IMG/VR virus record: IMGVR_UViG_3300009506_000027
Coordinates: 1 to 62,689 of that record
Strand: one strand, 5' to 3'
DNA length: 62,689 nucleotides
Origin: a virus
In this document: piece after piece, positions 7,999-55,322 of the stretch
Layout: each line of letters opens with the position of its first letter
Numbering within the stretch: position 1 is the first letter of the stretch
The notes under the pieces: model-generated
Told to the model about the DNA's origin: nothing
The model's database searches: none
Seen by the model: the letters and a program-made list of their open reading frames with translations, nothing else
Position numbers and translations under genes: made by a program

Positions 7999-8411
7999 TC
8001 GTCTGTATCGCGGGTTCTCGGGGGATCAACGACTACGACGCCCTCGTGAAGGCGATTGACGGGGCTCGTTTCCGAATCAACCTCATCCTCACCGGGGGTG
8101 CGAAGGGCGTAGACCAGTTGGCTACCCGGTATGCGAGACATACCCGGACCCAGTACGCCGTCTTCCCCCCGATGTGGGATGAGTTGGGCAAGAAGGCTGG
8201 TTTCGTCCGCTCCGACCACATGATCCAGGTCGCGGACGGCCTGATCGCCCTCTGGGACGGTCATTCCCGTGGCACACTCGGGACGATCCGTTTCGCGGTC
8301 AAGCGGAACTGTCATATCTTCGTAGCAGACGAACACGGAGACATGATGTGGCGGCGATCGGATGACGGAACCGAGGAAGAGAACCGGCCTGTGCCGTGGG
8401 TGCTGGGATGA
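7995..8411 (+). CDS. SLOG-superfamily protein (DUF2493-like)
   Basis: 138 residues from a GTG coupled to the previous stop. The N-terminal IVCIAGSRGINDYDALVKAI and the central ILTGGAKGVDQLATRYA are the two nucleotide-binding signatures of the DUF2493/YspA branch of SLOG proteins; then a conserved region with RSDHMIQVADGLIALWDG. The family is thought to bind nucleotide-derived ligands and is common in phages, but its role there is not established. Confidence 0.85.
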   Translation: MIVCIAGSRGINDYDALVKAIDGARFRINLILTGGAKGVDQLATRYARHTRTQYAVFPPMWDELGKKAGFVRSDHMIQVADGLIALWDGHSRGTLGTIRFAVKRNCHIFVADEHGDMMWRRSDDGTEEENRPVPWVLG

Positions 8412-8619
8412 CTTCGCAAGGGAAGGTCCTGGATGCCGTCGTTATGCTCGCTCACGGGCAGTACGAAGGTACCTGCTCGCATGGGAGGCTGACCCGAACC
8501 TGGAAGCCTCCTACGAGCAGGTGGACGTGTTGGACTGCTGGGCTGCTCCTGGGAGGGTTGGTGTCTTTCACGATCTTCCGTTTTTCGTCAAACCTCAACC
8601 GAAAGAATTTGAAAAATGA
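8362..8619 (+). CDS. Hypothetical protein (85 aa), frame uncertain
   Basis: This frame gives a plausible protein (LLAWEADPNLEASYEQVDVLDC, and CRGCWDDF near the start), but it overlaps the previous gene by 50 bp and has a weak ribosome site. A rival frame starts at 8408 with an ATGA overlap and runs to 8644, but its composition is poorer (many Thr, Trp and Arg). I prefer this one, with reserve. Confidence 0.45.
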   Translation: MTEPRKRTGLCRGCWDDFAREGPGCRRYARSRAVRRYLLAWEADPNLEASYEQVDVLDCWAAPGRVGVFHDLPFFVKPQPKEFEK

Positions 8620-8637
8620 CCCCTTTTCAGCCGATTT

Positions 8638-8650
8638 GTTATAGCGATAA
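8638..8650. promoter_or_regulatory. GTTATAGCGATAA operator-like site
   Basis: Matches the GTTATAACGATAAC dyad of the integrase promoter (55348) except at two of 14 positions. It begins the gap between rightward genes at 8620-8901 and lies about 110 bp before the TATAAT at 8756. It may be a repressor site. Confidence 0.45.
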
Positions 8651-8652
8651 AA

Positions 8653-8776
8653 AAGGTACAGCGCGAAGGTACGGCAACGCGGGTCAGCAAGTTCTTTCGC
8701 CACAACGACTTACAGCGCAGTTGCCTTTTGAAAGGTACAGCGTCGAGGGACACAATATAATAAGAATATATAAAAG
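8653..8776. other. Iteron-like repeats and AT-rich stretch: candidate origin or control region
   Basis: AAGGTACAGCG occurs at 8653-8663 and 8732-8742, a close copy (AAGGTACGGC) at 8666-8675, and a partial copy (TACAGCG) at 8711-8717. Directly after them 8754-8776 is almost pure A/T in a GC-rich genome and includes TATAAT at 8756-8761. The same element in inverse orientation stands twice before the replication gene at 51877. Together this looks like initiator-binding sites beside an unwinding region, or a promoter with a special -35 site. Confidence 0.4.
8756..8761 (+). promoter_or_regulatory. TATAAT -10 element without consensus -35
   Basis: A perfect TATAAT for the genes starting at 8902. 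The -35 position (8733-8738) falls inside one AAGGTACAGCG repeat rather than a TTGACA, so this promoter could depend on a protein bound to that repeat. Confidence 0.4.
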
Positions 8777-8901
8777 CCAAGAAAAGAGTGAATCATGGGG
8801 GGACCAAATTTCGCCGCCGATTCGTGAAGAATTGGGTTTGGTGGAGTGTCCCCCGCCTCGCTCGCTGGATTCATCGCTCGACTTCACAGAGGGGGAATGA
8901 A

Positions 8902-9237
8902 ATGGCAGAGATCAGGGAAGCGGTTGTACCTGGGGGGACGTTGGATGCGGAGGCCCGCGTCTGGTCGGAAGCGGAGGTGTTGGACTTGGGCCTCCAGTTG
9001 ACCGCCGTGGTGATGACGTCGGTTTACGGCGGGACGATGGAGGAAGCCTGGAAGACCTACGAGGAGGAGAAAGACGGGAAGGCTCCTTGTGAGGAGTTCC
9101 GGGACTTCGCCCTGATGGGGATTCACCTGGCCGAGCTTTTGACGTTGAAGGTCGGCCTGAGGGACGTCCTGGGGCTGGATGTGGATGCGATTCTGGCCCC
9201 ACACCAAAAGGAGGCTGAAAATGGGGAAGATGAGTAA
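8902..9237 (+). CDS. Hypothetical acidic protein (111 aa)
   Basis: Starts at the ATG at 8902 after GAGGGGGAATGAA (MAEIREAVVPGG); the frame upstream is open but overlaps the control region. Largely helical and acidic (GTMEEAWKTYEEEKDG, MGIHLAELLTLKVGL). Overlaps the next gene by 17 bp. Function unknown. Confidence 0.65.
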   Translation: MAEIREAVVPGGTLDAEARVWSEAEVLDLGLQLTAVVMTSVYGGTMEEAWKTYEEEKDGKAPCEEFRDFALMGIHLAELLTLKVGLRDVLGLDVDAILAPHQKEAENGEDE

Positions 9238-9957: not shown

Positions 9958-10318
9958 TGAGCAGTGGGGTGAAAGACTCCTAGACGTAGCTAGGGATATT
10001 ATGAAGGTCGTTGTATCCACGAGCAAGAATGTGGACGCCCTGGCGGCGCGGGTCAGTAATCTGGAGGAGCGGACCCTGCCGCCAGCCGACCGCTGGGGGG
10101 ACGAAGACGAGAAGGAGGCGTCCGGTGTCCTCGTCCCCATCGAGGAACTAACCGAAGCGTTGGCCGTCCTCGACCGAGCCCGTGCCTGTATCATCGCCAC
10201 GGCTGAGATCCCGATGCGCCTGGAGACAGTGCGCTTCCCCAAGACACTGAAGGCGATTGATCGCCTCTTTCATAAGGTGGGGTACGATGGAGCGGGTGCG
10301 CATCAAGAAGTGGGGTAA
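9944..10318 (+). CDS. Hypothetical protein (124 aa)
   Basis: GTG start with GGGAGGAG before it and a 14-bp overlap with the HAD gene. Helical, with a possible coiled-coil (NVDALAARVSNLEER) and a C-terminal helical part. Function unknown. Overlaps the next gene by 32 bp. Confidence 0.6.
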   Translation: MALVDEQWGERLLDVARDIMKVVVSTSKNVDALAARVSNLEERTLPPADRWGDEDEKEASGVLVPIEELTEALAVLDRARACIIATAEIPMRLETVRFPKTLKAIDRLFHKVGYDGAGAHQEVG

Positions 10319-10481
10319 AGACCACTACGAGGATCCACAGAAGCCGGGGTTCACGCTCTGTGGGTTTATGGTCCCATGGAAGCGCCGGGAGCCGCAGTAC
10401 AAAAAGCTCTGCGTGGAGTGCCGCAAGGTCTACCAGATGCGTTTCGAGGACCTGGTGAAGGAAATGCAGCATACCCCTTGA
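10287..10481 (+). CDS. Hypothetical small zinc-ribbon-like protein
   Basis: 64 residues from the ATG at 10287 (MERVRIKKWGKDHYEDP). One Cys in FTLCGF and a CVEC pair further on could form a treble-clef-like site. Basic. Its end overlaps the -35 hexamer of the promoter for the large RNA. Function unknown. Confidence 0.55.
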   Translation: MERVRIKKWGKDHYEDPQKPGFTLCGFMVPWKRREPQYKKLCVECRKVYQMRFEDLVKEMQHTP

Positions 10482-10505
10482 CACCACATTACAGGACGTT
10501 ATCTT
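10478..10505 (+). promoter_or_regulatory. Promoter of the large structured RNA
   Basis: Perfect -35 TTGACA (10478-10483), 16-bp spacer, -10 TATCTT (10500-10505, four of six). Transcription would start near 10512, in front of the structured RNA and without a gene start following. Confidence 0.65.
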
Positions 10506-10953
10506 CCAGGTCGCTGATTGAAAACTGGAATACAGGCCGCATGGGGTCTGTGAGGATATGCCGGGGCGACCCGGCGAAAGGGGATCGGTTTCCTGCGACC
10601 CCCCGCCTACGGGTCCAGCCATGTAAGCTCGCGCTGGTTGGCGTGGACACTTCCACGACTGACGCTTCCGCGAACCGGGAGATAAGCCCGAAGGAGGACC
10701 ACCCCGAGCAGTGGGCAACGCTGGCTGCGAAGGGTGGGGGAACGAGGGCCGACAGTGAACGAGTAGCGTGAGAGTTTGAGTCCCGATCAAGGACGAAGGC
10801 GATTACGAAGAACCGCACGGGCAAGGGTTGGGACACCCGATGGTCGTGTGGCCCGAGGAGTAGCGGCGACGTGAAACTCAGAGGGAGAGTGGCATTGACT
10901 GACTCAAAAGGTCAGGCACCCACCGGACGGGCTCTTTCTCGCAGGTTAACCAA

Positions 10954-11029
10954 GTGTGATTAGCTCAGTGGTAAGAGCAAAGCGGCGATAACGCTTAGGT
11001 CGCGGGTTCGACCCCCGCATCATACACCA
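10954..11029 (+). tRNA. tRNA-Ile(GAU) inside the large RNA
   Basis: 76 nt, all arms intact: acceptor GTGTGAT/ATCATAC (one G-U pair), D stem GCTC/GAGC with GG in the loop, anticodon stem AAGCG/CGCTT, T stem GCGGG/CCCGC with loop TTCGACC, discriminator A and encoded CCA. Anticodon GAT at positions 34-36. Odd: position 33 is C, not the near-universal T, and 32 is G. It sits in the apical loop of a 15-bp helix of the surrounding RNA. Confidence 0.9.
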
Positions 11030-11331
11030 AAAACGGAAAGACCCGTCCGGCACTGGAGACAAAAGTGGCTTAATCCCACGCCCTCCGGGGAACGTGGGGT
11101 GGGACAGACTCCCAAGGTCAGTCCTACTTGGTCGGAAGACGGAGGTAGCTCCTTAGCGGGAGCCCGCAGGCCGCAAGCCTGGCCCGAGTGTGAAGACCGA
11201 GTACATCCGGTGCGACAAGCCTAACGCCTGGCTTTCAAAACGGCAGTCATGGCCCATACCAGCCTCGCTGGTGGACAACGCGGGAACCCTACGGGTGGAG
11301 CCGGGGGATAATCCGACAAAAGGGGGACCAG

Positions 11332-11360
11332 AAAACGCCCATAGTCTCAGGGCGTTTTTT
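11332..11360 (+). terminator. Intrinsic terminator of the large RNA
   Basis: AAAACGCCC (11332-11340) pairs with GGGCGTTTT (11350-11358) around a 9-nt loop, and six T follow the GC stem (11355-11360). It ends the structured RNA. Confidence 0.85.
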
Positions 11361-11401: not shown

Positions 11402-11424
11402 GTTCTGTGAAGGGAGGTAATATC

Positions 11425-11637
11425 GTGACAGCAATTCCACCGGAAGGCTACAAGAAGTATCCCTGGGCCCTCGGCCCGATGAAGCTGCCCTGCGACTTCT
11501 TTTTCGAGGGTGACGACGCGGACAGAGCGGCGAGTGCCGCCAGGGTATGGGCGTCACGTAACAAGCATCACGGGATCCGCGTGGCGACCAGGAAAGAGCC
11601 TGGCGGCGTGCGAATCTACTTCCAGCAGGAGAACTAG
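11425..11637 (+). CDS. Hypothetical protein (70 aa)
   Basis: I choose the GTG at 11425 because AGGGAGGT stands 7 nt before it; an in-frame GTG at 11407 has no such site. The product (MTAIPPEGYKKYPW...) is small, with a helix (ADRAASAARVWASR) and strands at the end (GGVRIYF). Function unknown. First gene after the RNA terminator. Confidence 0.6.
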   Translation: MTAIPPEGYKKYPWALGPMKLPCDFFFEGDDADRAASAARVWASRNKHHGIRVATRKEPGGVRIYFQQEN

Positions 11638-27369: not shown

Positions 27370-27789
27370 ATGGCGGTAGACTATAATCCGGGGACCAACC
27401 CCTTCGACCCCCAGGACGATTTTCCGTCCACAGCCACCGGGGTCGTGCTTCCTGGTGGGGTAGACGCCGTGGAGGCCGACTACTCCTACATCGGAAGTGT
27501 GGACTTCAAAACAATCATCAACGAGTCGTGGGGTGGGAAGGAAAAAAGGACGGCCCAGGTCCCGGCGAGGCTTCGTTTCAAGATCATCTACGACCAGCTT
27601 ACGCCGACCGACGCCAACACTCTCTGGAACCATTACCTGGCGCAGGAGGGCCAGCTTTACGCCTTCAGCTATTTCGAGTATCTGAGCGAGGAGGAGTTCT
27701 CCGTCCGGTACAATATGCCGTCCATGGACAGGGAAACCTTCCTCTATGAGGCCGAGAAAACCGGCATCGAACTCATCCAGGTGTTGTAA
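27370..27789 (+). CDS. Minor tail protein
   Basis: 139 residues, AGGAGG before the start. Beta-rich with an acidic, Tyr-rich character (YNPGTNPFDPQDDFPS, YAFSYFEYLSEEEF). It precedes the tail-tip gene directly (TAATG overlap), where distal tail proteins lie. The exact homologue is not determined. Confidence 0.6.
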   Translation: MAVDYNPGTNPFDPQDDFPSTATGVVLPGGVDAVEADYSYIGSVDFKTIINESWGGKEKRTAQVPARLRFKIIYDQLTPTDANTLWNHYLAQEGQLYAFSYFEYLSEEEFSVRYNMPSMDRETFLYEAEKTGIELIQVL

Positions 27790-30700
27790 TGCGAAGCCTC
27801 AGTAGCGCGATCCAGGCCATTCTCGCTGCGGACCAGCAGCGTCCGGTCACGACCGTCAAGATCACCTTGCGTGACGTGGGGGCGACGGAGATTTACGCGG
27901 CGACCCATGAGGTCACAATCTCCTCCCAGCCCTACACGGGAGATATGCTTGGGCTCCCCAGGATCGTGGTGAGCGAGGAATCCGGGATTGACCATATCGT
28001 TGTCCAACTCGCCAACGCAGACTGGTCGTACTCCTCATACCACAACCAGAACGACTTCGACGGCGCGACCGCAGAGGTCAACCAGTATTTTGCCACGGAC
28101 GCCGGATACACCACGTTTGAGGGTCCGGTCCTACTCTTTTCGGGTACGATCTTCCGGCCCGAGGTCAATGCTCAGGTATTGACGCTCAACGTTATGGCCG
28201 ATGCCCGGATGGCAAGGGGCGGGAGCCTCGGGCGCACGATCACAAACCACTGCGGGTGGTTGTTCGGGAGCACGGACTCCAACTGCGGCTACACCTACTC
28301 CGCGCAGGTGGCCTCCGGTGGATCCTACAATGTCGGTGACTGGGTGCCCCTTTCCGGATCGCCCGCTACGGACCAGGATGGTGTGGCGCTGACCGCCGAC
28401 ACCATGGCGAACGTACCAGCGAACTACATCAAGATCATGCGCGGAAGTCCAACGGGCACAGAGATTTACACGAATCTCTACATCGCGTCGTCCGATCTGG
28501 ATAACTCGCAGATCAAGTTGGGCTACAATTTGGAGGATGGCCCGCTTCCCCCTTGGTCGCTCTCTGCCGGGGACTATATCGTCTACGTTGGTTGCCCACG
28601 CGACACAATCCGCGAGTGTGCGCGGCGTTGGCAGTTCGGGTCAGCGACCCGCCAGCAGGATAAGTTCGGCGGCTTCGACTACAACCGAGACAAGATCCTC
28701 CCCTACGCCAACCCGAAGCAGGGTGTGGTGGCGCAGATGAGCGGGGTGATGGGGGAGATCGTCCCCATCCCCTACGGATCCCGGTGGACGACCCCCATGA
28801 TCCTCGGCCTCCACCACCGCGCACATGGAGGGAACGGGGCCTGGGCTGCGTGGAACTCCACCAGGGACGGCCCGTTCGTGGTCTGCATCATCGGTGAGGG
28901 CCCCCTGGATACTGGCATTGAAACGATTGAGGACGACATCATGCTGGACGGTGCGCTGATCCGCGCCACCCAGTATTACGTCAACCAGGACTGGGAGGAT
29001 AAGTTCGATGTGCAGACGGGGACCACCACACAGGCCCCCTCGGACTTCTTCCCCATGTGGGACACCGACCACAACCTGCCTGGGTTCTCCGCTCTCAGGA
29101 ACATCGGCTATTTCATCCAGGAGCTTCCCGAGAGCTACGACGTCCAGCCCCACATGACCAACGAGTTGTGGGATCACTTCAATCCACCGATCGGCAGCAC
29201 GGATTGGGGATCCCTGAAGCCAGCGTCCTCCTACTTCACCCGCACGCGGTATTGGTCGGTCGCCACCCCCGACATACAATGCAAATACAAGGGGAAGAAG
29301 GTTCAGAAGTACGTGTACTCCGGTGGCGTACCCACGACCGATGCTTACGAATACTCCCGCAACCCCGTCTGGCAGATCCTCGACGTCCTGACGGCGAGCT
29401 ACCGCACGGACGACAGCGATCAGTGGTCGGCTGGCCTTGCTACCAGTGAAGTAGACCTCGGCTCCTTTATCGACTGGGCCGACTACTGCGAGGAGCAGAT
29501 TGACGTCTACGACTACGACGGTAGCAGCATCACGGTTGACCGTTATGTGTCGGACTTCTACGTCAAGTCCAGCAAGAGGGGCGAGGTCCTGGAAGCCCTC
29601 CTCCTCGCCTGCCGTGGTGCCCTGGTGGCGCGGGACGGCAAGGTGGGGATCGTGCTGGACGCGCCGCTCGGCGGTACGGGCACCGTAACGGGCGCTACAA
29701 GCACTTCGATCACCGAAAGCACCCGTGACGGCCTGACGGACGCCTCGTGGCCCACAGGGGGCGTCAGCGGCCTTCTGACGGGCCGGTACCTGAAGATGCT
29801 TACTGGTGCTGCGGCTGGTGATGTTCGCACCATCACCTCCAACACCGGGACGACGATCAATGTCTCCGCGTCTTTCAGCACAACGCCCAGCCCCGGTGAC
29901 ACCTACGCCGTCTACGCCGTCGAACTGAATACGGACAACGTGGGTCCGATCCGGGTGGGACACAAGAAGCCCCTCTACGAACTCACGAATCAGGTGATCG
30001 CCAGCTACGAGTCCACCAAGGACCAGGGCAGGCAGGCCACCATCCCGATTCCAGACACCTACGAGGACGACCAGGGCGACTACCACTTCGACAAGTTCGG
30101 CCTGAACGAACGGAAGATTCAGATGGACGCCACGACGGAGTGGCAGCAGGCCGTTCGGAACGGATGGTATGAGCTTCGGAGGGAACTGGATCAGAACTTT
30201 GAGTTCATCATCGAAGGTCTGAATATCGAAGGGCTGGCGGTGGAGGTGGGGGACGTGGCCCTCATCAACCACGACATTAGCGGGATCACCAACGAAACGG
30301 TTCGGGTTACGAGGGTCGAGGACAACGGCAACGCCACCTACTCCCTGGTCTGCGAGCTTTTCCGGGACCATGTCTACCTGGATTTCCCCACCGACGATTT
30401 CGATTCGGTGGACATTTCCTCCAACCTGATCCCGCCCCACGGCGTTCCTTCCCATGTGACCGGCGTGACCATTGACCACTACGTCGAAATGGACAACGAG
30501 GCTCCTTGGGTCGTGGTAGAATGGGAGCAGCCTGGCTGGCCGTATCGCAACTGGTCTGTCGTGATTGAGTCCCGTTTCCAGAACCCGCTGACGGAGGTGT
30601 GGGGAGACTGGGAGGAGATCGGCACATCCATCACGACGAAGTTCACCTTCCGCTCCGCTCGCCTCGGCATGATTGAGGTACGTCCCACCTTGATGAGCGC

Positions 30701-33700
30701 GGTGGGCGTGAAGGCGAACGACCCCCTGGAGAACGGGACCTCCTCGGGCGGGAACACCTCTACCACGTTGAACGACACTACTCGTGCCTGGGACATCAAC
30801 GCCTGGGACGGGTGCTATGTGAGGATCACGAGCGGGACCGGGGACGCCAACGACCCGAAGGAGATCGTCAGCAACACAGCAACAGAACTGACGATCAACG
30901 GCACCTACCCGTGGAGCCCCACCCCTGACGGAACATCCGTTTACGAAATCTACGTGCCCTCGCCCGAGGTACAGGAACAGATCACCGCTGGGATTGGTTA
31001 CGGCTTCCCCTTCCTGGACGAAGACGATGGCGACCTTTTCCTGCATCCAGGATGGCAGCTTGGCCTTGCCTGCAAGTACCTGGACTCTGACACCGCTCCT
31101 ACGCTGAACGACGTAATCACGACAGGAACGATCCTCACGGCTGATGGAGCACCAGAGGACGGCACAAACGTCCACACGTTCACCACAGACGGGGAGATCC
31201 GGTACGTCGGTATCGTTTACTACCTGGACGAAGCCTGCACCCAGGGCGAGAGCGGCCTGACTGTCCTCCGGTATACCTACCACGAGGCAGACAACAACCC
31301 CAAGGTGGTGTGGTTCCCCTACATCCCGGACACTGTTGGATACGAGGGCGCACGGTTCGTCGCTACCGACGACAGCAGCCAGGTCAACTTCGGGTACGAC
31401 ATTATCACCGAGGGCGACCCGGATCCGACGTGGCCTGGCGACTACACCATGTCCGGGTTGGTTGCCGACCCCTATGTGGAGGACATTGAGGTACCCAAGC
31501 CCGCCGAGGGCGCGACCCGCAAGGTAATCCTGTTCAACTGCGTGGATGCTGACGGCAGAACCTTCCGGCCAACGGACGATCCTGGGCGCGTTTACATTGA
31601 CGGGAACTCGCGGCCCAGCGGCTACTGCACCTACGACATTGAGCCTGATTATACGCCCGTCATTACACCGCAGGCGATTGAAACGGATACGCAGTCCTGG
31701 CGCTTCCGGGTAAAGAAGACGAACATCGGCTCCGAAGCGTGGGACGCGATCTCCTGGGACGATCTGACCACCGGGGAATACTCGGGGAACACTTTCGAGC
31801 CCCAGTACATGACCTCCTACGTCCTCACCGAGACTGAATGTCTCAACGTGGAGGTCGTCTTCTTGAGAACGTCGGCAACGGACGACACCACCCAGTCGCT
31901 CTCCATGAAATCCGAGGCGATGCGGTTCACGGTCTACCCGTTCTTCGACACAGTTGTACCAACCGTACAAGCGTACCCAGGACAGGTCGGCTCCGTGGGG
32001 AACCTCTACCTGGTCATCAACGACCCCAAGGGGTTCACGGTCGAGACTGCGTTCAAGGCGGTAGAGGATTGGGACGGCGAGGACTTTGACGACCCGACCG
32101 ATGGAAGCTGGAACCGCGACACCATCGTACCCTACAACCTGACCGAGACAGTCAACCTGGGCGAGGACCACAACAGCCTGATCGCCTGGGCGGTGGGGTA
32201 TGACCTTGGCGACGGGAACGGCACCGTTTACATCCAGGGCTCCAACATCTTCGACCTCGACAAGATCCCGGTCGTGTTCGGTGCCCTGCACGTCAATGCT
32301 AATGGTGACGTCTACCTGTCCGCGAACGGCAGGGAGGACCTGAAGTCCATCCAGTATCTCACCTCCACCACCTCCATGCCTGGGGACGTGTCCGGTGGTA
32401 CGGTGGTGAATGGGCGGTCCACCAACACCCTGGTCTACTCTGGCCTCACGGATGGCTCTACGCTGTATATCCGTGTGCGTGGCTACAACCTCGTGGGTGG
32501 GGCTGTCGGTGGTGGTGATGAGTCAACCGAAGACTGGCTGGGCCAGGTCACGAATATGCACTCATCCCAGATTCCTGGGGTGAAGGTATACAAGTCGCAG
32601 AGCGGTTCTACCGGCACGCTGAACATCCTGGTGGACGACCCGGACGGGGTGCAGGTGGCGAGTTCGTTCCAGGACCAGTCTGGCGGCGGGGATTTCAGCC
32701 TTTCGTCCGACCCGACGACATGGTCCGGGTACGACAACTCCTCGCCCTATGACACCAGCGACACCGTGACCCTGGTGGACAAGCACACCAGCTTCATCGC
32801 CTGGGCCGTTGGGTACGACCTTGGTGGCGGGACTGAGTGGATCACCGGCACGGAAACATTTGATATTGATGAGAACCCGTCCGGGACCGGGACCGCTGTT
32901 GTGTACTCCAACGGCAACGCCTCCTGCGACCTGTTCGGTGATGAAGACACGGCGTCGTGGAAGGTGGCGGCATCCGTGACCTCCTTCCCCACCGCGACAA
33001 CGGTGAGGGCGCAGACCGCCGACGATGGGCAGAGCCTCACCGCGTCGGACATTGGCACGCTGGTATCGGCATCAAACGGTGACACCATCTACTACTCGGC
33101 CTTCCCGTACTCCTCCACCGGAGGCGGCGGGACCGAGGGTGCGATGGTGAATTTCATCGGGAACTACTTCGACACCGACACGCTGCCGACCGATCCGGTT
33201 GCCCCGAAGGCGTTCGTGGTACCCAGCGTATCGGGCTCCACCGGCACCTTGGATCTGACGGTGCGGGACGAATACCTGTCCGTTACGGCTATCGAAAAGC
33301 GAACGAAGCAGGGCAGCGGCGCGTGGAGTTCGTGGAGCAGCCTGACCGGGGGCACGGGGACCATCGGTGTAGACGAAGACCTCACACGCTCACAGACCGT
33401 CACGATTGAGGAGAAACACAACTCTGAAATCGGTATCAGGATCGCCTGGACCGATGAACTCAGCGCCACGCGGTACACCTACTTCAGCCAGACCTATGAC
33501 CTGAACGTCATCCCCTCCGTGGTTTGCGGACTTTCCCTGACGCTGTCGAAGGTGTACCTCGCGTGGATCGGTGACGATGACCTGGCCTCCATCACCTACA
33601 AGACGTCCACCTCTGCCATGCCCGTGGACGTATCTGGCGGGACGACGGTGGACGGGCGCACGGGGGACGAGCAAGACCTCGGCACCCTGAACCGTGGCGA

Positions 33701-35705
33701 AATCATGTACGTCCGGGTGCGCGGCTACTCTGCCGTTAGCGGTGGGGGCACGGCGTCTGCTGAAGACTGGACGGGGATGATCCGGCGCGACTTCACGCTC
33801 ATCCCGACCGTGCAGGTGGTGGCGTCGCAGTCCGGTACCACCGGGACGGTAACTTTGAATATCGAGGACCCGGATTCAAAGATGAACGCCACATCTTTTG
33901 AAACCGGGATTTCTCCAGACGCCAATCCAGCCAACTGGTCCGGGTACGATAACTCCGATCCCTATGGCACCACCCAGAACATCACGATTGAGGAAAAGCA
34001 CCCCACGGTGATCCACTGGGGGGTCCGCTACGACCTCGGCCTCGGTGATGGGAACGTCTGGATTACGGGCTCCCATACCTTCGACATTGACACGATCCCG
34101 AGTGTCACGGCAGAGCTTCAGCAGGTGGGGAACTATCTCTACCTGTCGTGGAACGGCGACGAAGACGTCGGCTCCATCAAGTACCTGGGGAGCACCGGGA
34201 GTATGCCTACCGAGGCAAACCTCGACGCATCAGGTACTTATAACAATAACAGGGCGGGCCGCATCACGCTCTACACGGGTACGTTCTACGAGGGTAAGGA
34301 GTATTACGTTCGCCTGCGGGCCTACTCCGGTGCGAGCGGGGCCGGGGACCAGTCGGCGGAAGACGTTCAGGTTTCTGCGGCGCACTCCATTTCCGGCCCA
34401 CCTCTGGTCAAGGTCATCGCCACCCAGAGCGGCACCACGGGGACGCTGACCATCACCGTGGACGACCCGCTCCTGCGGGTGAACGCCACCGCTTTCGAGC
34501 CCATCGCTGGGGGCGGGGCCTTCAGCCCGAACTCGGACCCAGCAAGCTGGAGCAACTACGACAACTCCTCGCCATATACCTACTCGGACACGGTAGACAT
34601 TAATCCGAAGCACGGGAGCGTGATCTGGTGGGGGGTCAGGTGGGGGCCGACCAACGACTCGACCTACAAGTGGATTACGGGATCCCACACCTTCGACGCT
34701 GACCTCCAGGCAGAGATCAACTCCATGTCCCTGGATGTGGACGAGAACGGATACGCGGACGTGTCCGTCATCGGTGACGAAGACTGCGACAATATTTACG
34801 TGCGCGTGGGGGTCGGGTCGGCACCGACAGACCCCACGAATGGATCCTATCACGGCACCTTCTCCGGCAACAACGGGGTCGCCACAACTTCTGTGGCGGT
34901 GTCTGCTGGCGATCAAATCTACATCAAGGCCAGGGGCTACAACGGGTCTGACCCAGGGCCAGTGAAGCAACTGGTTGTTAAGTGGGTGGCTACTCCCATC
35001 GTGTCAGTCGAAGTCACTTTTGACGATGACGGGTACGCGATCGTTTCTGCCACGGCTGGCGACGACGCGACCTACATCTACTACAACGCGGACATTGGCT
35101 CTGACCCAGGAACCCCCACGAGTTCGGTCTATGACGGCTCAATCTCCGGTAGCTCTGGGAGCCACACCAGCACCACGATCCAGGCCGACATGGGTGAGGA
35201 GGTCTGGGTCAACATTCGGGCCTACGCTGGTACGGTCGCTGGCCCCGTGTTCGGGATCATCAAGGCCCGTCGCGGCGTGGGGACGGTATCGAAGACGCAG
35301 TATTTCCAGGCTACTGGGATCATCGGGCAAAGCTCGGGTGTGGTGGAGACTGACGGCTACCTCGCCGCCACAAGCACATCCTCTACGGAGGTGAAGGGCG
35401 GCATCACGATCCCGCAGGGCGTAGTGATTACCGACTTCGGTGCCAGGTTGTACCGGGGAGGAGCCTCGGACGCCGCCAGCGCCTCCCTCCTGGCCGGTCC
35501 CTATGGTGCGCTTTGGTATGTGATTGCCGCCGCCACCGCCACCGGAACCGGGTGGACAACGCCGTATGACACCGCCAACTATACTGTGACCTCTGCGGCG
35601 ATTTCATTGAAGCTAGTGTTTGACGCGAACACCAGTGGCGACGATGTAAGGTGTGACTACATCTGGATCACCTACGACGCATCGGACGTGGACAAGACCC
35701 TCTAG
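27789..35705 (+). CDS. Giant tail-tip/host-specificity protein (2638 aa)
   Basis: A composite protein. Residues about 1-250 resemble the DUF2163/BR0599 tail module, including its Cys signature CGWLFGSTDSNCGYT near 154. Residues about 330-980 are J-like; NPVWQILDVLTASYR near 524 and SFIDWADYCEEQI are typical tip-protein stretches. Two copies of a beta module (TGRYLKMLTGAAAGDVRTI near 650; CYVRITSGTGDANDPKEI near 1000) are inserted. From about 1390 on come five repeats of about 205 residues, starting near 1390, 1595, 1804, 2004 and 2203, each with a QSGSTGTL-like start and a DNSSPY-like centre, then degenerate Fn3-like units. It would form the tail tip and contact the receptor. Confidence 0.85.
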   Translation: MRSLSSAIQAILAADQQRPVTTVKITLRDVGATEIYAATHEVTISSQPYTGDMLGLPRIVVSEESGIDHIVVQLANADWSYSSYHNQNDFDGATAEVNQYFATDAGYTTFEGPVLLFSGTIFRPEVNAQVLTLNVMADARMARGGSLGRTITNHCGWLFGSTDSNCGYTYSAQVASGGSYNVGDWVPLSGSPATDQDGVALTADTMANVPANYIKIMRGSPTGTEIYTNLYIASSDLDNSQIKLGYNLEDGPLPPWSLSAGDYIVYVGCPRDTIRECARRWQFGSATRQQDKFGGFDYNRDKILPYANPKQGVVAQMSGVMGEIVPIPYGSRWTTPMILGLHHRAHGGNGAWAAWNSTRDGPFVVCIIGEGPLDTGIETIEDDIMLDGALIRATQYYVNQDWEDKFDVQTGTTTQAPSDFFPMWDTDHNLPGFSALRNIGYFIQELPESYDVQPHMTNELWDHFNPPIGSTDWGSLKPASSYFTRTRYWSVATPDIQCKYKGKKVQKYVYSGGVPTTDAYEYSRNPVWQILDVLTASYRTDDSDQWSAGLATSEVDLGSFIDWADYCEEQIDVYDYDGSSITVDRYVSDFYVKSSKRGEVLEALLLACRGALVARDGKVGIVLDAPLGGTGTVTGATSTSITESTRDGLTDASWPTGGVSGLLTGRYLKMLTGAAAGDVRTITSNTGTTINVSASFSTTPSPGDTYAVYAVELNTDNVGPIRVGHKKPLYELTNQVIASYESTKDQGRQATIPIPDTYEDDQGDYHFDKFGLNERKIQMDATTEWQQAVRNGWYELRRELDQNFEFIIEGLNIEGLAVEVGDVALINHDISGITNETVRVTRVEDNGNATYSLVCELFRDHVYLDFPTDDFDSVDISSNLIPPHGVPSHVTGVTIDHYVEMDNEAPWVVVEWEQPGWPYRNWSVVIESRFQNPLTEVWGDWEEIGTSITTKFTFRSARLGMIEVRPTLMSAVGVKANDPLENGTSSGGNTSTTLNDTTRAWDINAWDGCYVRITSGTGDANDPKEIVSNTATELTINGTYPWSPTPDGTSVYEIYVPSPEVQEQITAGIGYGFPFLDEDDGDLFLHPGWQLGLACKYLDSDTAPTLNDVITTGTILTADGAPEDGTNVHTFTTDGEIRYVGIVYYLDEACTQGESGLTVLRYTYHEADNNPKVVWFPYIPDTVGYEGARFVATDDSSQVNFGYDIITEGDPDPTWPGDYTMSGLVADPYVEDIEVPKPAEGATRKVILFNCVDADGRTFRPTDDPGRVYIDGNSRPSGYCTYDIEPDYTPVITPQAIETDTQSWRFRVKKTNIGSEAWDAISWDDLTTGEYSGNTFEPQYMTSYVLTETECLNVEVVFLRTSATDDTTQSLSMKSEAMRFTVYPFFDTVVPTVQAYPGQVGSVGNLYLVINDPKGFTVETAFKAVEDWDGEDFDDPTDGSWNRDTIVPYNLTETVNLGEDHNSLIAWAVGYDLGDGNGTVYIQGSNIFDLDKIPVVFGALHVNANGDVYLSANGREDLKSIQYLTSTTSMPGDVSGGTVVNGRSTNTLVYSGLTDGSTLYIRVRGYNLVGGAVGGGDESTEDWLGQVTNMHSSQIPGVKVYKSQSGSTGTLNILVDDPDGVQVASSFQDQSGGGDFSLSSDPTTWSGYDNSSPYDTSDTVTLVDKHTSFIAWAVGYDLGGGTEWITGTETFDIDENPSGTGTAVVYSNGNASCDLFGDEDTASWKVAASVTSFPTATTVRAQTADDGQSLTASDIGTLVSASNGDTIYYSAFPYSSTGGGGTEGAMVNFIGNYFDTDTLPTDPVAPKAFVVPSVSGSTGTLDLTVRDEYLSVTAIEKRTKQGSGAWSSWSSLTGGTGTIGVDEDLTRSQTVTIEEKHNSEIGIRIAWTDELSATRYTYFSQTYDLNVIPSVVCGLSLTLSKVYLAWIGDDDLASITYKTSTSAMPVDVSGGTTVDGRTGDEQDLGTLNRGEIMYVRVRGYSAVSGGGTASAEDWTGMIRRDFTLIPTVQVVASQSGTTGTVTLNIEDPDSKMNATSFETGISPDANPANWSGYDNSDPYGTTQNITIEEKHPTVIHWGVRYDLGLGDGNVWITGSHTFDIDTIPSVTAELQQVGNYLYLSWNGDEDVGSIKYLGSTGSMPTEANLDASGTYNNNRAGRITLYTGTFYEGKEYYVRLRAYSGASGAGDQSAEDVQVSAAHSISGPPLVKVIATQSGTTGTLTITVDDPLLRVNATAFEPIAGGGAFSPNSDPASWSNYDNSSPYTYSDTVDINPKHGSVIWWGVRWGPTNDSTYKWITGSHTFDADLQAEINSMSLDVDENGYADVSVIGDEDCDNIYVRVGVGSAPTDPTNGSYHGTFSGNNGVATTSVAVSAGDQIYIKARGYNGSDPGPVKQLVVKWVATPIVSVEVTFDDDGYAIVSATAGDDATYIYYNADIGSDPGTPTSSVYDGSISGSSGSHTSTTIQADMGEEVWVNIRAYAGTVAGPVFGIIKARRGVGTVSKTQYFQATGIIGQSSGVVETDGYLAATSTSSTEVKGGITIPQGVVITDFGARLYRGGASDAASASLLAGPYGALWYVIAAATATGTGWTTPYDTANYTVTSAAISLKLVFDANTSGDDVRCDYIWITYDASDVDKTL

Positions 35706-54160: not shown

Positions 54161-54176
54161 TTTAGGCGAGCCTAAA
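54161..54176. repeat. Second copy of the 16-bp TTTAGGC palindrome, at the integrase stop
   Basis: TTTAGGC-GA-GCCTAAA, exactly the reverse complement of 1993-2008. It contains the integrase stop codon and encodes its last residues (FRLA-stop). Possible attachment-core or regulator site. Confidence 0.6.
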
Positions 54177-55322
54177 CTTTGCGTCAACGCTGGTGTCCTG
54201 GTACAATCGGGCCACCGCACGCTCCACTGCCCCGACCCTTTCGTCCTCTGCCTTCTTCCCGCGCCGATGAAACTTGCTGTCGATTACGTGGCCCGGAGTC
54301 ACGCCCAGGATGAGCGAGATCGTGAACGGATGCGCTCCGTTTTCTGCCATGTGGATCGCCCCCATCTGTCGTAGCACGGAGGGGTTGTACTCCAGGTCCT
54401 TGTAGATCCACGACAGCATCTTCTGGGACATGATCTTCCCAGGGAGCCCGCCCTCGTTGAAGCTGTGAAGTACCTCCCGTACTAGATCCATCGGTAGCGG
54501 CACCACCCGCTCGGTGTTCCTGGACATTCGCCTCGTGTAGGGTTCCCCGGCGACGTAGACGTGCCCGACGCCCGACTTCCCCCACTGAGCGATGGGGTGC
54601 GTTTCCTGCCAGGTACGCACGAACCAGGACTCATCCACCGCTGCGTAGATTTCGTGGCTGCTGGCCTCGGAGTGCCCCACAATCTCCATCGCCTGCTCCA
54701 GGGTGGCCCCGGTGTTCAGGAGCCAGGTGACGCAGGTGTGACGCAGCCCGTGGGCGCTGGCCTCGGGAGCCACGGCCTTGAGGTGCCGGTCAATCAGGTA
54801 CCGCACCCCCCTTTCGGACACAGCGCTGCCCGTGGGAGACTGGAAGAGGGGGCGACTGACGTGGCGCTTGCCCACCGTACTGGTCCGCTTCAGGTGGGAG
54901 CCCTCGCCAGCCGCAAGGCGCTCAACTCGTTCCTGGAGGGGCTGTGGAACATAGATTTCACGCCTGCCTCCCCCCTTCCCTTGAACGGAAATGAATAGCC
55001 GCCCATCGCGGGGGTGAATGTCACCCAGCCGGATCCTACGAAGCTCCACCTGCCTGAGCCCACAGACCAGCCCCATTTCAACCAACACCTGGTCACGCAG
55101 ATTCCCGGCAACGGCTACTGAGTCCAGCAGGGCCTTCGCCTGTTCGTAGGACAACCCCCTGCTGTCGGTTGTCCCAGGCAACTGCGGGGGTGTGGGACGC
55201 ACCGAGTCCCAGGCCAGCCTGTGGATCTCACCGGCCCCCAGACCGGCGTAGCTGAGAATGGACATGGCGCGACGCACGATGTTCGTGTCGCTGAAGATTT
55301 TCTCCTTGAGTGAGCCCCCCAT
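54162..55322 (-). CDS. int: Tyrosine recombinase (integrase) with C-terminal extension
   Basis: 386 residues, AGGGGGG before the ATG. Catalytic residues: Arg90 (CGLRQVEL), Lys116 (VQGKGGGRRE), His191 and Arg194 (HGLRHT), His217 (IVGHSEASS), Tyr226 (HEIYAAVD). The N-terminal core-binding part is short (about 45 residues). About 150 residues follow the catalytic Tyr, unusual for the family; their end (NPSVLRQMGAIHMAENGAHP) looks like a decayed HxxR region, as from a second catalytic core. Integrates and excises the phage. Confidence 0.85.
   Translation of the reverse strand: MGGSLKEKIFSDTNIVRRAMSILSYAGLGAGEIHRLAWDSVRPTPPQLPGTTDSRGLSYEQAKALLDSVAVAGNLRDQVLVEMGLVCGLRQVELRRIRLGDIHPRDGRLFISVQGKGGGRREIYVPQPLQERVERLAAGEGSHLKRTSTVGKRHVSRPLFQSPTGSAVSERGVRYLIDRHLKAVAPEASAHGLRHTCVTWLLNTGATLEQAMEIVGHSEASSHEIYAAVDESWFVRTWQETHPIAQWGKSGVGHVYVAGEPYTRRMSRNTERVVPLPMDLVREVLHSFNEGGLPGKIMSQKMLSWIYKDLEYNPSVLRQMGAIHMAENGAHPFTISLILGVTPGHVIDSKFHRRGKKAEDERVGAVERAVARLYQDTSVDAKFRLA

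Follow-up and report, generated by a model that had tools for sequence, protein, structure and literature searches.

GOLLD RNA (RF02032) was reportedly described by Weinberg et al. in 2009, and the GOLLD of Mycobacterium tRNA arrays is said to have been the subject of work by Morgado et al. in 2020. In cryo-EM, the GOLLD env-38 forms a hollow cage of 14 subunits, with the variable linker on the inside (PMC12286853). Phage tRNAs sometimes sit in this linker, and the same 2025 cryo-EM work, which covers 806 non-redundant GOLLDs, proposed that GOLLD cages could possibly hold phage tRNAs (PMC12286853). The presence of tRNAs in GOLLD linkers is already published (PMC12286853, PMC6582537); the linker tRNA in Mycobacterium was judged to be a pseudo-tRNA, for which no expression could be detected (PMC6582537). 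As quoted in a further paper, GOLLD accumulates in lytic growth, yet was dispensable in a Lactobacillus brevis prophage (PMC7567579).

The DNA analysed here (the window, a stretch of 62,689 nucleotides) is that of a tailed phage, with genes for terminase, major head protein, tail protein, helicase and integrase. It encodes an RNA of about 850 nt, compared with 833 nt for env-38 (PMC12286853); GOLLDs in general frequently exceed 800 nt. Like known GOLLDs, this RNA consists of a conserved 3' domain and a variable 5' domain, has a variable linker within the 3' domain, and is located in a phage. The first-pass annotation, made from the letters alone, had taken the region for a GOLLD-type RNA, or for a new class should the covariance model fail. 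The GOLLD assignment is correct: RF02032 aligns from end to end (model positions 1-416 of 416) with positions 10880-11355 (+), at 146.6 bits and an E-value of 9.4e-41, marking the conserved 3' domain, and this full-length match, which a later scan reproduced, excludes the fallback of a new class. The ROOL covariance model, run on the same region as the annotation had suggested, gave no match at E-values up to 10.

Rfam sets a gathering score of 150 bits for RF02032, and the window GOLLD falls short of it by 3.4 bits; this value is a curation threshold and not a biological feature. A default Rfam scan at this threshold reports the tRNA and misses the GOLLD, which appears only in a scan by E-value. 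The small shortfall is the one point in favour of reading the RNA as a ROOL or as a large phage RNA of some new class. Against it stand the E-value over the full model, the lack of a ROOL match, and homologues of the same architecture that are clearly GOLLDs and score above the cut-off. The comparison of the two models refutes this reading, to which we give a negligible probability; the RNA is a newly found GOLLD of the already known family.

RF02032 covers only the 3' domain of GOLLD, and the 5' domain lies outside the model. In the window the latter spans 10512-10879 (+), about 370 nt of lineage-variable sequence, where the start is placed from the position of the putative promoter. It contains no ORF of substance. 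A short segment of it (10527-10582) has a limited resemblance to the 5' domain of another GOLLD in our set, L136 (56 nt at 73%, E 9e-4), and a fainter one to the 5' domain of L072, from Roseobacter phage DSS3P8 (E 0.045). An AGTAG motif common to many GOLLDs is found just upstream of the 3' domain.

The RNA lies between the end of a small gene of the phage (10257-10481) and a frame of 76 amino acids (11407-11637), in some 880 nt that hold no credible gene. Three ORFs cross the region, at 10191-10790 (-), 10489-10836 (-) and 10376-10771 (+); none has a Pfam match above the cut-off, and protein-coding alternatives were ruled out on this basis. A putative sigma-70-like promoter (TTGACA-16-TATCTT, 10478-10505, +) agrees with the consensus in 10 of 12 positions and overlaps the end of the upstream gene; one promoter-like site of such quality was found, where 0.3 would be expected. 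At the other end, the sequence and the end of the model match define a last hairpin and T-run (11332-11360, +). The GC-rich hairpin at 11332-11358 (AAAACGCCC / ATAGTCTCA / GGGCGTTTT), with a T-run to 11360, is also the final hairpin of the GOLLD, and would act as an intrinsic terminator. It was missed by the terminator scanner because its 9-nt loop exceeds the limit of the program. The promoter, the terminator and the absence of a credible gene had all been pointed out in the first-pass annotation, and the sequence agrees with each. From promoter to terminator the RNA measures the approximately 850 nt given above.

The folding energy of the whole RNA is low compared with shuffled sequences (z -4.2, 20 shuffles), with z values of -2.9 for the 5' domain and -2.1 for the 3' domain. 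Stretches of 375 nt sampled across the gene-dense part of the same phage range from +0.8 to -4.4. The single-domain values lie within this range, and energy by itself is therefore insufficient to establish the RNA; as stand-alone proof it was rejected. The RNA is established by the covariance model and by comparative evidence.

In the RF02032 alignment, the 3' domain opens with a consensus stem (10881-10940, +), in which 10881-10889 pairs with 10932-10940 in nine of nine positions, including two G-U pairs. This stem encloses an inner hairpin with a UCAAAAG loop, and an internal loop (10923-10931) that is unpaired in the Rfam consensus. The nine bases of the internal loop (CCGGACGGG, 10923-10931, +) are complementary to nine bases just after the linker (CCCGTCCGG, 11042-11050, +). 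Across 26 distinct pairs of internal-loop and post-linker segments, standard pairs occupy 216 of 234 cells. Double changes are seen in 69 cells, with 9 to 15 of these at each of helix positions 4-8. In 28 distinct contexts the best native helix has on average 8.29 of 9 pairs, against 6.41 when the partners are swapped; the maximum in 1000 swaps was 6.93. The 9-bp core is a real covarying helix of the pseudoknot type, which closes off the linker beneath the tRNA. The Rfam covariance model, which cannot hold pseudoknots, does not include it; the published GOLLD secondary structure has 27 stems, and this helix is probably among them.

The first-pass annotation had described here a 15-bp helix with one bulge, presenting an intact tRNA at its tip. 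The pairing is exactly as described (10923-10938 with 11036-11050, with one bulged C at 10932). As a family feature, only the 9-bp core stands (10923-10931 with 11042-11050), and the reading as a simple stem does not. The other six base pairs are present in the window but are not a feature of the family, and compete with the consensus stem: 10933-10938 can pair with 11036-11041 only by opening the stem 10881-10889/10932-10940. Minimum-energy folding favours this 6-bp extension over the consensus stem, and it is possible that the extension is an alternative fold in the window GOLLD.

The tRNA in the variable linker was called as tRNA-Ile(GAT) at 10954-11029 (+) by both ARAGORN and Rfam (60.7 bits), so that the earlier description of it as intact was sound. 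It has seven of seven acceptor pairs (one of them G-U), A73 and an encoded CCA. Its anticodon loop, GCGATAA, has a C at position 33, and lacks the uridine expected there of a decoding tRNA. Both programs find no other tRNA in the whole window, and no array surrounds it. An origin of the tRNA as an attachment site was considered and rejected, since the tRNA is complete and 43 kb separate it from the integrase gene (54162-55322). This tRNA is among the best preserved of its kind, and but for C33 its sequence would be compatible with a working tRNA.

Homologues were collected by pattern searches of viral contigs, with each match checked with RF02032, and from phage records. Including the window, the set comprises 58 GOLLD loci, of which 35 have a linker tRNA according to ARAGORN (30 distinct sequences). 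Linker tRNAs occur at the same place in the phiCbK-type Caulobacter phages, in L025 and in about 30 further phage contigs; GOLLDs without a linker tRNA are common (for example L145-L157). Many homologues were found through patterns that required an intact T arm, and conservation of the T arm is therefore not claimed from the present set; the patterns placed no demand on acceptor stem, anticodon loop or CCA. A BLAST search against phages and plasmids matched mainly the tRNA, but pointed to the Caulobacter phages. Other routes gave nothing: an exact 16-mer search of viral contigs returned 12 contigs, none with a GOLLD or tRNA (chance matches), and a pattern linking both strands of the helix across the linker found nothing. 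A scan of genome contigs returned three, none of them with a GOLLD match. RF02032 had no match in 398 Pseudomonadota genomes, in a scan that scored just three candidates per genome and detected no positive control.

The tRNA-bearing GOLLDs score 126-226 bits with RF02032, against 275-332 bits for most tRNA-free ones. Those of the phiCbK-type Caulobacter phages reach 165-170 bits. Besides the window GOLLD, five tRNA-bearing homologues score under 150 bits (126.5-144.8 bits), since inserted bases cost score. The sub-threshold score of the window GOLLD is thus normal for such members. The cut-off misses part of the tRNA-bearing branch, and surveys that use it therefore undercount this branch.

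For the 30 distinct linker tRNAs, the remaining 266 tRNAs of the fetched loci served as controls. The linker tRNAs carry anticodons of 13 or more kinds (Ile, Ser, Gly, Lys, Leu, Gln, Pro, His, Tyr, Arg, Asn, Cys and SeC, with some ambiguous), and the Ser and Leu members have no long variable arm. A complete acceptor stem is found in 4 of 30 linker tRNAs, against 209 of 266 controls (Fisher 2e-12); 5 of 30 encode a CCA, compared with 103 of 266. The anticodon loop often departs from the rules: U33 is present in 20 of 25 linker tRNAs and 253 of 261 controls, a purine at position 37 in 20 of 25 and 256 of 261, and a loop of other than 7 nt is seen in 5 of 30 and 5 of 266. These counts are not fully independent, since clustering at about 85% similarity reduces the 30 sequences to 22 groups, one of which accounts for four of the five loops of unusual size; counted by cluster, complete acceptor stems (4 of 22) still differ strongly from the control. 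Some linker tRNAs (L081 and L132/134/135) have both a complete acceptor stem and an encoded CCA. Two Caulobacter linker tRNAs (L014 1999-2072 and L015 1999-2072) have near-identical bodies with Gly or Lys anticodons, and the anticodon can therefore change recently while the body stays. Most linker tRNAs thus look poorly suited to decoding or charging, which argues for a role based on shape. Across the family, the linker tRNA may be kept for its shape more than for decoding, as a tethered mimic or cargo. In the papers covered we found no earlier account of such a systematic loss of decoding features in linker tRNAs, but it may have been noted before, for example in the original description of GOLLD or in the 2020 work on Mycobacterium.

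Taking these observations together, we consider it likely that the window encodes a phage GOLLD of about 850 nt, running from its own promoter to its terminator and forming a cage like that of env-38, with the linker tRNA tethered inside and, less certainly, kept as a mimic or cargo. Transcription would start from the promoter at about 10505 and end at the terminator at 11360. By analogy with env-38, the RNA would form a cage, the lumen of which could carry up to 14 tethered tRNA-shaped modules, and the linker under each would be closed by the covarying helix. The tRNA shape may present or hide a ligand, for which the ribosome or a tRNA-binding enzyme are candidates only. The wider proposal, that linker tRNAs are a recurrent class of tethered, mostly non-decoding mimics, at most 14 in an RNA cage, whose fold is kept while acceptor stem, anticodon and loop rules decay, is offered tentatively, at somewhat less than even confidence.

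Phage tRNA genes often recombine, and the tRNA could be a chance insertion into a tolerant loop, with no role at all. The many different anticodons, the frequency of tRNA-free GOLLDs and the lack of the GOLLD itself in a relative of the phage would all agree with this, but 22 clusters of tRNAs lie at the same linker, always on the sense strand, and the whole fold should have been lost if the tRNA were a free passenger. The D, anticodon and T arms remain paired despite sequence divergence, a point that is partly weakened by search patterns that asked for the T arm. On balance a chance insertion appears unlikely. A slightly lower probability is given to the GOLLD being a tRNA precursor, from which RNase P and 3' processing would free a working tRNA-Ile(GAU) to aid phage translation, with the frame as a mere carrier. 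Bacteria already possess tRNA-Ile(GAU), and cleavage would cut the GOLLD chain. The complete acceptor stem and encoded CCA of the window tRNA, shared by those of L081, L132 and L134, fit a precursor; C33 in place of the near-invariant U33 does not, nor do the linker tRNAs of the relatives, which mostly have incomplete acceptor stems and no CCA, nor does the undetected expression of the Mycobacterium pseudo-tRNA (PMC6582537).

The retention of the tRNA fold while acceptor stem and decoding features decay, in what are phage genes, is also what would be seen if the tethered tRNAs were decoys that soak up anticodon nucleases or other tRNA-attacking defence enzymes of the host. However, anticodon nucleases attack the anticodon loop, which is one of the less conserved parts of these tRNAs, and the published cage would hide the linker; we regard a decoy as the more doubtful for this, and improbable overall. 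A tethered mimic or cargo within the proposed cage is the reading that we prefer.

Two relatives of the phage were found through the terminase (76-78% identical), and the contig of neither has a match to RF02032. In one of them (L036), homologues of the genes before (56% amino acid identity) and after (59%) the GOLLD region are directly adjacent, with no GOLLD between them. The GOLLD and the 76-aa frame are therefore an optional cassette, which may have been gained in the window phage or lost in the relative. The 76-aa hypothetical protein (11407-11637, +) has no match in Pfam or PHROGs. Its homologue in L037 (51% amino acid identity) stands in a different gene context, and it is missing at the matching site of L036. 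Elsewhere in the window, a 2638-aa ORF downstream of the head genes (27789-35705) has no PHROGs match.

Several of the homologous loci have a tmRNA near the GOLLD. A permuted (two-piece) tmRNA lies beside the tRNA-bearing GOLLD in L014 (1016-1456), L015 (1017-1456) and L016 (906-1345, -), and another follows the GOLLD of Roseobacter phage DSS3P8 (2095-2516, +). Ordinary tmRNAs are found about 0.8-1.6 kb downstream of the tRNA-free GOLLDs L017, L018, L022-L024, L027 and L028, on the opposite strand. In L021, downstream of the GOLLD (8352-8942, -), a match to a group I intron (8352-8575) adjoins and overlaps a weak tmRNA match (8549-8942); a self-splicing intron may here interrupt a phage tmRNA.

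Among the described systems, env-38 has a linker of about 40 disordered nucleotides, whereas the linker of the window RNA holds a complete tRNA. ROOL is also a large phage RNA that forms a hollow cage with an inner linker, and its model is unmatched here. GOLLDs lie close to tRNA genes; in the window the tRNA-Ile is within the linker and there is no array. In Mycobacterium tRNA arrays the tRNA is inside the GOLLD gene, as in the window, but it was judged a pseudo-tRNA and belongs to a cluster of more than 30 tRNAs (PMC6582537). The Caulobacter phages phiCbK, CcrMagneto, CcrKarma and BL57 (L014-L016) have both a linker tRNA and the same closing helix (CUGGACCAG/CUGGUCCAG). Unlike that of the window, their linker tRNA, which is annotated in the phage records, has a Lys or Gly anticodon, five of seven acceptor pairs and no CCA, and their GOLLD adjoins a permuted tmRNA and other tRNAs.
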